Source: Halorhodospira halophila (GTDB lineage: Bacteria > Pseudomonadota > Gammaproteobacteria > Nitrococcales > Halorhodospiraceae). Taken from it: a stretch of 64,000 bases of DNA. The stretch covers positions 1-64,000 of the forward strand of contig NZ_NHSN01000009.1 in NCBI RefSeq assembly GCF_016653405.1, written 5' to 3'. Numbering within the stretch: position 1 is the first letter of the stretch; the number at the start of each line of letters is the position of its first letter. A program made the position numbers and the translations under genes. The notes below the pieces were generated by a model. That model was not told the origin of the DNA. It worked only from the letters and a program-made list of their open reading frames with translations, and did no database searches. Positions 1-12,884 of the stretch are shown piece by piece.

Positions 1-854
1 CCCGGCTCGCCCGCCTGCGGCTCGCCAGCCGCGGCCGCGCCGGGTGGGGGCGGCGCCGAAGCGCTTTGCGCATCGTCGCCCGCGCCTTCGACCGCCGGCG
101 GCGACGCGTCCTTGCCGGGCGCTGCTCCGGGGCCGTAGAGGCTGTCGAGCAGCTGCTCGAACTCCTCCTCGGTGATCTCGTCGTCCCCGCCGCCCGAGGC
201 CGGTTCGGCGGCCTCCGCGGCCGGATCCTCGGCCACCGGCTTGCCCTGGTGCTGACCTTTGCCGTGGAGCTCGTCGAGCAGCTGCTCGAACTCAGCGTCG
301 GTGATCTCGTCGCCGCCTCCGGAGGTGGCGGCCTCGTCGCCGTCGTCCAGGGCGGTGAGCAGCTCATCGAACTCGGCGTCGCTGTCGTCGCCGGTCTGCT
401 CTTGCTGGGAGGCCGGCTGCTGCTCCTGCGCTGCCCCTGCGGCGGCGGCCGGCGGCGCACCGGCATCCGCCTGCTTGAGCCGGTCGAGCTCCTGGAGCAG
501 CTCCGCCGAGGCCGGTTCCGGGTCGCTGCCGTTCTCGATCTGCCCGAACTGCGCGACCACCACATCGAGCGCGCGCAGGACGGTGTCCATCAGCTCCGGC
601 GAGACCTGCTTCTCGCCATTGCGCAGCAGGTTGAAGACGTCCTCGGTGCGGTGGCAGACCTCAACCAGCGGATCGAGCCCGAGGAACCCGGCGCCCCCCT
701 TGATGGTGTGGAAGCCGCGGAAGACCGAATTGAGCAGATCCTGGTCCTCGCCGTGCTGCTCCAGATCCACCAGCTGCTCGCCCAGCCGGTCGAGGATCTC
801 CCGAGACTCGACCAGGAAGTCCTGCACGATGTCGTCGTCGAGGTCGATGGCCAT
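1..854 (-). CDS. cheA: Chemotaxis histidine kinase CheA, N-terminal part (runs off the window)
   Basis: The frame is open from the ATG at 854 to the left edge, so only about the first 284 residues are present. Residues 1-105 form an Hpt (P1) domain; the phospho-acceptor histidine is in FRGFHTIKGG (His49). After it comes a long Ala/Gly/Glu-rich linker with three short acidic repeats (DAEFDELLTALDDG, DAEFEQLLDELHG, EEEFEQLLDSLYG; about 348-389, 263-312 and 131-184). The dimerisation, ATPase and CheW-like domains lie outside the window. It follows cheZ in the fliA-cheY-cheZ-cheA order usual for polar-flagellum gammaproteobacteria. In the family it phosphorylates CheY under receptor control. Function is certain; the rest of the gene cannot be judged. 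Confidence 0.95.
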   Translation of the reverse strand, partial: MAIDLDDDIVQDFLVESREILDRLGEQLVDLEQHGEDQDLLNSVFRGFHTIKGGAGFLGLDPLVEVCHRTEDVFNLLRNGEKQVSPELMDTVLRALDVVVAQFGQIENGSDPEPASAELLQELDRLKQADAGAPPAAAAGAAQEQQPASQQEQTGDDSDAEFDELLTALDDGDEAATSGGGDEITDAEFEQLLDELHGKGQHQGKPVAEDPAAEAAEPASGGGDDEITEEEFEQLLDSLYGPGAAPGKDASPPAVEGAGDDAQSASAPPPPGAAAAGEPQAGEP

Positions 855-893
855 GCTCGGCCTCCGCTGTTGTTGGGCTTCTCGGTGCCCGGG

Positions 894-1688
894 CTAAAAC
901 CCCAGGCTCGACAGGAGATCGTCCACTTCGTCCTGCCCGCTGACCACGTCGTCGCCACCCTTGCCGGGCATGGTCGGCCCCTCGCCGCGGCGCATCCGCT
1001 CGCTGGCCACCTCGGCGTCCTCGGCCGGCCGGGTGGAGGGCTGCTGGCCTTCCTCCTCGAAGCGCTGCCCGGAGATGCGCACCAGCTGGACCAGGTTCGA
1101 CTCGACCTCCTCGACCAGGGCGATGACCTTGCGGATGATCTGCCCGGTCAGGTCCTGGTAGTCCTGGGCCATCAACGCCTCGTTGAGCTGATCGCTGATC
1201 TGCCGACTGTCTGCCTGGACCCGGTTGAGGAAGCCATCCAGCTCGCGGGAGAGCTCGCGGAAGTCCTCGACATTGAGCTCGCGGCGCTGGAAGGCCTGCC
1301 AGCGCTCCGCCAGCCGTGCCCCCTCCTCGGCCAGCTCCTGCGCCAGCGGCGCACTGCCCTCGATCACCGTCAGGGTGCGGTGGGCGGCCTGCTCGGTCAT
1401 CGTGATGACGTAGTTCAGGCGCTCGCGGGCATCGGGGATCTCCTGGGAGGTGATATCGGCCAGGCGCTCGTCGTAGTTGAACGCCTTGATCGCCTCGTGC
1501 AGATCCCGGGTCAGCGTCCCCAGCTCGCGGAAGAGCTCGGTCTCCCGCAGGTGGGTCAGGTCGTCGATGACCGTCTGGGCACCCTCGCTGTCCCCGGCGT
1601 CGACGTGCTCCAGTAACTGCTGCGCGGCGCGGCGGTACGCCTCGAGGTCGGCGCCGCTGCTGCCCTGCTCCCGGCGCATGCTGCTCAT
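894..1688 (-). CDS. cheZ: CheY-P phosphatase CheZ
   Basis: 264 residues, mostly long amphipathic helices as expected of the CheZ four-helix dimer. The catalytic helix is visible as [20 protein letters not shown], with the Asp and Gln (DLTGQ) of the active site. The C-terminal tail, [13 protein letters not shown], is the conserved CheY-binding peptide. The ATG at 1688 overlaps the cheY stop (ATGA), which implies translational coupling; an in-frame ATG at 1679 is the alternative start. CheZ dephosphorylates CheY-P and so resets the motor signal. It is followed by cheA after 39 bp. Confidence 0.96.
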
Positions 1689-2086
1689 CCCCCGCCTGCC
1701 TGGACCCGCTCGAAGATCTTGTCGATCTTCTCGCGCAGCGTCGCCGCGGTGAAGGGCTTGACGATGTAGCCGTTCACCCCGGCCTGCGCCGCCTCCATGA
1801 TCTGCTCGCGCTTGGCCTCGGCGGTGACCATCAGCGTGGGCAGGTCCTTGAGATTGGCGTCGGCACGGACGTGCTTGAGCAGTTCCAGACCGGTCATGCC
1901 CGGCATGTTCCAGTCGGTGATCAGAAAGTCGATCCCGCCCTTCTGCAGGATGGGCAGCGCCGTGTTGCCGTCGTCGGCCTCGACCACGTTGTTGTAGCCG
2001 AGTTCGCGCAACAGGTTCTTGATGATCCGCCTCATCGTGGAGAAATCGTCCACAACGAGGATCTTCATGTTCTTGTCCGCTGCCAC
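1685..2086 (-). CDS. cheY: Chemotaxis response regulator CheY
   Basis: 133-residue single receiver domain. The acidic pocket is Asp13-Asp14, the phospho-acceptor Asp58 ([10 protein letters not shown]), the switch Thr88 (VTAEAK) and the conserved Lys110 (VKPF). Phosphorylated by CheA, it binds FliM at the switch to change rotation. It lies 36 bp after fliA and shares an ATGA overlap with cheZ, so it is probably co-transcribed with both. Confidence 0.98.
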
Positions 2087-11742: not shown

Positions 11743-12884
11743 GACTCATCCACCCTCTGGCTGCTCTGGGGGCGCTCCGGCGCCTCGTGGGACTCCTCGG
11801 CGCCGCTGCGCTGCTCGGCGGTGAGCCGGTTGATGCGCTGCTGAACCGGCTCCTCGTCCCGTTCGCGCTCCTCGCGGCGGACCTGGTCGCGCTCCGGCAG
11901 CAGTGTCTCGCGCTCCGGCGCCTGCACCTTCTCGTCAATGCGCAGCGCCGCATGGCCCTCGCACACCCCATAGGTACCGTAGAAGACCGGCACCTCCTCG
12001 ACCTCGACCACCACCCGCTCGGGCATCTCGATGGGGATCACATCCCCGGCCTTGAGGTGCATCAGATCGCGCAGGGTGATCTCCGAGCGCGCCAGGGTAC
12101 TGTGCATGGTCACCGGAGCGGTCTTCATCTCTTCGCGCAGCGCCTTGGCCCAGCGGTCATCGACGTCGTTGCGATCGGACTGCACGCCGGCGTCGAGGAT
12201 CTCGCGGATCGGCTCGACCATGGTGTACGGCAGGGTCACGTGGATGTCGCCACCGCCGCCGTCGAGCTCGACGTGGAACTTGCTCACGACGACCACCTCG
12301 GTGGGGCTGACGATGTTGGCGAACTGCGGGTTGACCTCCATGTTCACGTACTCGAAGTCCACGCCGAGCACCGGGTTCCACGCCTCGCGCAGGTCGTCGA
12401 AGGCCTGATCGAGCATCAGCCGGATAACCCGCTGCTCGGTGGGCGTGAACTCGCGCCCCTCCACCTTGAGGTAGAAGTGCCCGCCGCCGCCGAAGAAGTT
12501 GTCCACCACCAGGAAGACCAGCTTGGGGTCGATCACGAACAGACCGGAGCCGCGCAGCGGCGGCACGCGGATGATGTTCAGGCTGGTGGGGACGAACAGG
12601 GTGTGGACGTACTCGCCGAACTTCATCATCTCCACGCCGGTGACCGAGACCTCCGGCGTGCGGCGGAGCATGTTGAACAGGCCGATGCGAAAGAGCCGCC
12701 CGAAGCGCTCGTTGATCATCTCCAGGGTCGGCATCCGGCCCCGGACGATGCGCTCCTCGGCGGTAAAGGTGTACGGCCGGAGTTCGCCGGTATCCTCTTC
12801 GTCCTCGGTGTCGACGTCGCCGTCGTCGATCCCGTGGAGGAGCGCGTCGATCTCGTCCTGGCTGAGGATATCCTGCTGCGACAT
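11739..12884 (-). CDS. fliM: Flagellar motor switch protein FliM
   Basis: 381 residues. The N-terminus, DILSQDEIDALLHG, is the CheY-P binding peptide. The middle domain (about 45-235, ending near LPYTMVEPIREILDAG) and the C-terminal SpoA domain (about 255-325) are complete. A roughly 55-residue Glu/Arg-rich C-terminal tail extends beyond the usual length. It couples CheY-P binding to rotation direction. It lies 12 bp after fliL. Confidence 0.97.
   Translation of the reverse strand: MSQQDILSQDEIDALLHGIDDGDVDTEDEEDTGELRPYTFTAEERIVRGRMPTLEMINERFGRLFRIGLFNMLRRTPEVSVTGVEMMKFGEYVHTLFVPTSLNIIRVPPLRGSGLFVIDPKLVFLVVDNFFGGGGHFYLKVEGREFTPTEQRVIRLMLDQAFDDLREAWNPVLGVDFEYVNMEVNPQFANIVSPTEVVVVSKFHVELDGGGGDIHVTLPYTMVEPIREILDAGVQSDRNDVDDRWAKALREEMKTAPVTMHSTLARSEITLRDLMHLKAGDVIPIEMPERVVVEVEEVPVFYGTYGVCEGHAALRIDEKVQAPERETLLPERDQVRREERERDEEPVQQRINRLTAEQRSGAEESHEAPERPQSSQRVDES

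Follow-up and report, generated by a model that had tools for sequence, protein, structure and literature searches.

The linker between the P1 and P3 domains of a widespread type of flagellar CheA carries short repeats, with the core [I][ST]xxEF[DE]xLLDxL, often followed by HGxG. These repeats recur beyond chance in CheAs class-wide. Judging from their likeness to the N-terminal peptide of FliM and from their retention in genomes where neither ParP nor CheZ is detected, it is reasonably probable that docking of CheY on short putative binding motifs replaces the P2 domain in this CheA, with some copies perhaps also acting as the ParP-binding LID. Loss of P2 from CheA is already published; a FliM-like motif in place of P2 would be the new part. 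No earlier report of the motif in CheA was found in a literature search that included exact motif strings and had thin coverage of subscription journals.

The window is the whole stretch of DNA that was analyzed, 64,000 bases long (C9:1-64000, on a contig of 110,345 bases). Its cheA is an open frame on the reverse strand (3..854), 284 aa long and cut by the contig start. A sequence-only reading of the window had pointed out three short units after the Hpt domain of this truncated gene and had compared them with peptides of FliM and CheZ encoded nearby. Position mapping confirmed the three units, and both peptides are encoded as described, at 12831-12869 and 897-938. The features concerned are as follows.

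3..854, - strand: cheA, N-terminal 284 aa (P1 plus linker), from the ORF list and Pfam; ends at the contig edge
552..833, - strand: Hpt (P1) domain, residues 8-101, with HTIKGG (PF01627, E 4.4e-20)
3..527, - strand: low-complexity P1-P3 linker with repeats; continues beyond the contig end
339..380, - strand: repeat 1, DAEFDELLTALDDG, residues 159-172 (position mapping)
261..299, - strand: repeat 2, DAEFEQLLDELHG, residues 186-198; extended form DEITDAEFEQLLDELHGKGQHQG at 243-311
132..170, - strand: repeat 3, EEEFEQLLDSLYG, residues 229-241; extended form DEITEEEFEQLLDSLYGPGAAPG at 114-182
894..1688, - strand: cheZ (PF04344)
897..938, - strand: CheZ C-terminal peptide, 14 residues (position mapping)
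1685..2086, - strand: cheY (PF00072)
12831..12869, - strand: FliM N-terminal peptide, ILSQDEIDALLHG (position mapping)

At the DNA level, the repeats of the window cheA appear as two 84-nt copies with 76% identity, together with a 26-nt family. One strict DNA pattern has a single genome-wide match, at repeat 3, and misses repeats 1 and 2. The remainder of the window cheA was not detected in the assembly, where the only H-kinase_dim match belongs to a complete CheA on contig C28. Contig C8 terminates in a ParP-like gene followed by cheW (L013 2210-2890) and probably lies across the cheA gap from the window. By the gene order of relatives, this gap probably holds the rest of cheA along with cheB, motC/D and parC. 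Compared with published descriptions of flagellar clusters, the window cheA would be a widespread flagellar P2-less CheA of the F6 type.

A search for P1 covered 276 genomes sampled across the class, own genome included. Matches at E <= 1e-18 were found in 117 genomes at 119 places, and 113 places were fetched, leaving out the window and five contig-cut rows. By regular expression, the core is present in 104 of the 113 CheA places, as a single copy in 9, two copies in 43, three in 42 and four in 10. The nine core-less places comprise L149, whose variant EFERYLDELYG the expression skips, two CheAs with a domain in the P2 position, three frames longer than 1,180 aa and three of about 800 aa. A scan of named genomes for the relative L119 confirmed 576 matches; the top 80, among them the L119 record itself, were kept and sample one neighborhood of the tree. 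All of these best 80 of 576 loci carry the core, 77 of them with three copies and 3 with four; the genera include Vibrio, Photobacterium, Aliivibrio, Shewanella, Aeromonas, Pseudoalteromonas and others.

The consensus of 424 distinct copies reads D-[ED]-I-[TS]-[DE]-x-E-F-E-x-L-L-D-x-L-H-G-x-G. The glutamate preceding the phenylalanine is conserved in 98% of copies, the two leucines of LL in 90 and 99%, the following D in 94%, L in 86%, H in 80% and G in 86%. The central F is imposed by the regular expression; loosening this residue to the hydrophobic class added two sites, one of which (L148) is motif-like. A stricter version of the F-type core occurs in no other ORF of at least 80 aa on the cheA strand of the 113 loci. 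Variant repeats are found in L131 and L132 (genomes G298 and G210), where they follow LPEGxDPDx and LLQMRE or LLNQRD replaces LLDxLHG; in both clusters, cheW lies directly 3' of cheA.

A published survey (PMC10782961, accessible part) describes a majority of CheAs as being without P2 and as having an unstructured P1-P3 region, which raises the question of how such kinases select and hold CheY. The CheAs studied here share both properties, and differ in bearing a candidate docking motif, none being given for P2-less CheAs in the accessible part of that survey. The window locus was compared with 23 relatives of the same CheA, drawn from a near-relative search of 40 genomes (own included) with matches in 30. 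The sequences of 21 of the 23 relatives extend as far as P3. In these near relatives, the Hpt domain is followed by the spaced units, an alanine/proline/glycine-rich stretch and then directly by the dimerization domain, as in SVRVDTAKLDEIMNLVGELVLVRNRL. In six complete motif-type CheAs, Pfam reports above its cut-offs only Hpt, H-kinase_dim, HATPase_c and CheW, plus SHOCT on a repeat in two of them; the P2 (PF07194) and CheY-binding (PF09078) models have no match in the six. Neither model exceeds its cut-off anywhere in the 40 genomes, own included, and both also miss a domain that occupies the P2 position of second CheAs, which marks them as low-powered. One sub-threshold match (13 bits, E 0.33) lies inside that domain in the second CheA of G010.

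Across 101 linkers, 126 to 342 residues long, 83% of the residues outside the motifs are A/P/E/S/G/K/T/D/Q, and the large hydrophobic residues F/W/Y/I/L/M make up 6.5% outside the motifs, in contrast to 21.5% of the whole CheA. With so many disorder-promoting and so few large hydrophobic residues, a folded domain hidden in the linker is unlikely. An AlphaFold model of P1 plus linker from the relative L116 predicts the P1 domain, followed by a linker mostly below a pLDDT of 55 with short helices. The helices, at 378-390, 412-422 and 460-471, coincide with three of the four motifs and have flanks below 50, while the first copy is non-helical. Three of the four repeats in this model take the form of short helices in a disordered segment. 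Neither the model of this one relative nor the composition of the 101 linkers gives any sign of a folded alpha/beta domain in the P1-P3 interval. The sequence-only reading had supposed that the repeats either stand in for a P2 domain or add to one, and had named a P2 further along the protein as the check. No folded P2 appeared in the relatives (Pfam on six complete CheAs; AlphaFold on L116), which favors the first alternative over the second. The repeats would share with P2, or a CheY-binding domain, the position in the protein and the presumed job, and differ in being short motifs in a disorder-like linker where no folded domain is seen.

A different arrangement is found in second CheAs of the same genomes. 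Thirteen were fetched and ten parsed, the three unparsed ones being left out of the counts. All ten have a conserved domain of about 86 residues in the P2 position (recognized in seven by pattern and in three by eye and alignment), and all ten are without the motif. Likewise, the second, complete CheA of the own genome (L012 2417-4543, contig C28) has the P2-position domain and no motif; its gene clusters with cheW and a chemoreceptor gene. In the genomes examined, motif and P2-position domain are mutually exclusive. PDB look-ups with a second-CheA linker, an F6-type linker and a profile of the P2-position domain returned no P2 relative, and the term P2-position domain is therefore a description and not a family assignment. 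A whole-CheA profile matches CheA structures in the PDB mainly over P1 and P3-P5.

The likeness of the repeats to known CheY-binding peptides was assessed at the profile level. In the motif loci, the typical FliM peptide is LSQDEIDALLHGV, and the typical CheZ tail is a 14-residue C-terminal peptide. In a profile-profile alignment, ITDxEFEALLD of the repeats falls in register on LSQDEIDALLH of FliM. The hhalign values, obtained with short profiles, are a probability of 2.8% (P 0.0055) for repeats against the FliM N-terminus, 0.6% (P 0.05) for repeats against the CheZ C-terminus and 14.6% for FliM against CheZ. Low hhalign probabilities are usual for profiles so short. As controls, 818 twenty-column windows were taken from 11 other flagellar and chemotaxis proteins (fliA, the twelfth, gave none) and from the rest of FliM and CheZ. 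None of the 818 exceeds the score of 15.4 between the repeats and the FliM N-terminus, the top control being 13.8, in FlhA; against the CheZ C-terminus, 10 of the 818 score higher (98.8th percentile). On a matrix built from the FliM and CheZ peptides, CheA outscores every other ORF in 55 of 90 loci with about 17 ORFs each, 14 further loci having been dropped by an overlap filter. Shuffled linkers reach a 99.9th percentile of 11.7 bits with this matrix, compared to a real median of 5.1, so the likeness is partly one of acidic composition, since shuffled linkers can outscore real ones. For the three copies in the window itself, the in-register scores are only 2.9, -6.8 and 3.4 bits.

The acidic-hydrophobic pattern that the sequence-only reading had seen in all three peptides is better borne out for FliM than for the CheZ tail. 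The repeats keep the sequence register of the acidic-amphipathic core of these peptides, at low hhalign probability. With the FliM N-terminus (LSQDEIDALLHG) they share the register I/L-[ST]-x-[DE]-E-hydrophobic-[DE]-x-L-L, matched above all 818 controls; unlike FliM and CheZ, the CheA copies have F instead of I/V at the central position and no Q, and they further differ from FliM in an extra DxL(HG) tail and in lying inside a kinase, mostly as several copies. With CheZ they share E-hydrophobic-acidic-x-LL-x-x-L-[HG], but the profile match is weaker and the CheZ peptide is terminal and single.

On the CheY side, 99 proteins from motif loci were aligned. All 99 retain I95, Y106, K109 and K119 (numbered as in E. 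coli), and R92, Q94, V103 and K117 occur in 84, 95, 97 and 84 of them, respectively. The latter four positions reportedly change in CheYs that switch partner from CheA-F6 to CheA-F7, and three of the four are read by the authors as P2-facing (PMC7184735, in the part available). If the F6 CheA is without P2, these three residues may face the repeats instead.

Structure prediction of a repeat with CheY, suggested by the sequence-only reading as a check, was uninformative as to docking. The CheY and CheA of L116 were modeled in one frame, with the DNA read through, stops treated as residues and the chain aligned with 22 similar segments. Confidence over the motif helices, as means of 10-residue blocks, is 78-85 with CheY in the chain and 78-83 without, and AlphaFold confidence was dropped as docking evidence because the control is equal. 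A structure look-up with this model returned CheY in 49 of 50 rows and PleD in one, and probes little outside model residues 2-130.

In the mechanism that we propose, a long disordered tether would join P1 to P3 and carry a short helical motif, from a single copy up to four. Each copy would be a low-affinity dock for the alpha4-beta5-alpha5 face of CheY, bound in a FliM-N-like manner. Docked CheY would be kept near phospho-P1, enriching substrate locally, the role that P2 has in model CheAs, and several interchangeable weak sites would replace the single P2 site, in which case multivalency would matter. The receiver domain of CheB may be a further ligand. FliM-type peptides prefer phosphorylated CheY and can also favor its phosphorylation. 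The former preference is not ideal for a substrate-docking site; given the latter, the repeats might not only hold CheY but also prime it. In species with ParC/ParP, at least one copy, perhaps through its HGxG tail, may double as the LID site for ParP.

The main competitor to CheY docking is that the repeats are the CheA-LID itself, a grip for the CheW-like AIF domain of ParP in polar arrays, with CheY docking uninvolved; we regard this as rather improbable. The LID has been placed between P2 and P3 of ParC/ParP-associated CheAs (PMC7534058, PMC5706961, in the parts available), and in three Vibrio CheAs (L233, L235 and L236) the stretch so placed contains only repeats, making it possible that one or more of them form the LID. 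Region and CheA type are the same, and toward the end of contig C8 the own genome carries a ParP-like gene that, used as a query, finds the ParP-like genes of other loci. CheAs of ParP-bearing genomes also have more copies (a mean of 2.76 compared to 1.73 in ParP-less ones), and 49 of 55 have at least one HGxG tail, in contrast to 6 of 15 ParP-less CheAs (Fisher p 2e-4, kinship uncorrected), a pattern in keeping with an additional role of the tail, or of extra copies, in connection with ParP. The repeats persist, however, where ParP is not detected. Genomes without a clear ParP in the locus, 25 in number, were scanned with a ParP profile, which gave 210 and 217 bits in two controls that have ParP; a match of at least 64 bits turned up in eight of the 25, and in 17 none rises above 35 bits. 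The 17 include G169, whose locus does hold a divergent ParP that the profile threshold missed; other divergent ParPs may have escaped in like manner. The other sixteen motif-bearing genomes, from ten families, have no ParP match above 35 bits and all keep the core, weakly in L148; the motif appears not to be confined to CheAs with ParC/ParP. Six of the sixteen (G040, G280, G211, G091, G049 and G185) show a weak match that extends to the ParP-typical end of the profile and possibly have a divergent ParP; the remaining ten have no match as far as this end. In seven of the sixteen (G298, G210, G047, G190, G059, G062 and G040), there is no ParA-like gene between cheA and cheW. On these comparisons, it is unlikely that the LID alone explains the repeats.

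CheZ as the only partner was ruled out, as four motif-bearing genomes (G190, G059, G124 and G169) have no CheZ match. Two of these, G190 and G059, belong to one genus and keep the motif with no ParP match above 35 bits and no CheZ genome-wide, which leaves CheY as the natural remaining ligand. The retention of the motif in the 16 genomes without detected ParP, and in this genus without CheZ, suggests CheY as the partner. The original proposal that the repeats are CheY docking sites thereby gains from this retention and from the resemblance to the FliM N-terminus, and is qualified in that some copies may serve ParP.

Two other accounts leave CheY aside. The repeats could be SHOCT-like or self-association helices, pairing among themselves or with another domain of CheA. 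Of eight CheAs scanned, two (L138 and L132) have a repeat that scores above the cut-off of SHOCT (PF09851), four have one below it and two have no match, and AlphaFold predicts the helices confidently without any partner. The match covers only the second half of the model (positions 10-27 of 28), however, the motif is single in 9 of 113 places and the FliM register match accounts for the same residues; we consider this account quite improbable. Docking of the CheB receiver domain, or of some other receiver protein, by the repeats in place of CheY has a very slim chance. P2 is described as docking both CheY and CheB (PMC11978298, in the part available), and many clusters have a REC-containing gene 3' of cheA, but the motif clusters L131, L143 and L144 have no such gene after cheA in the stretch read, and the similarity of the repeats is to CheY-binding peptides.

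A broader reading of CheY docking by the repeats is that in gammaproteobacterial F6-type CheAs, a FliM-mimicking multivalent array has replaced P2 and shares the output face of CheY with the motor and the phosphatase, extra copies having been co-opted as the ParP LID. We put this forward tentatively, as something just short of an even prospect. If true, kinase, motor switch and phosphatase would be rivals for CheY, each using its own version of one peptide, CheY would be handed between the three on variants of it, and the "P2" and "LID" of Vibrio-type CheAs would be copies of one repeat. As the motif is conserved and countable, binding assays on peptides and point mutants of a laboratory strain would allow a direct test of how P2-less CheAs select and hold CheY.

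Some minor observations concern annotation and gene order. The above-cut-off SHOCT matches on the L138 and L132 repeats are a likely source of misannotation. A 516-aa open frame at 66-1616 (+ strand) of the window, antisense to cheA and cheZ, is probably a high-GC artifact. In L116 (11815-13425), from a genome without a CheZ match, cheY lies directly before a cheA with four repeats.
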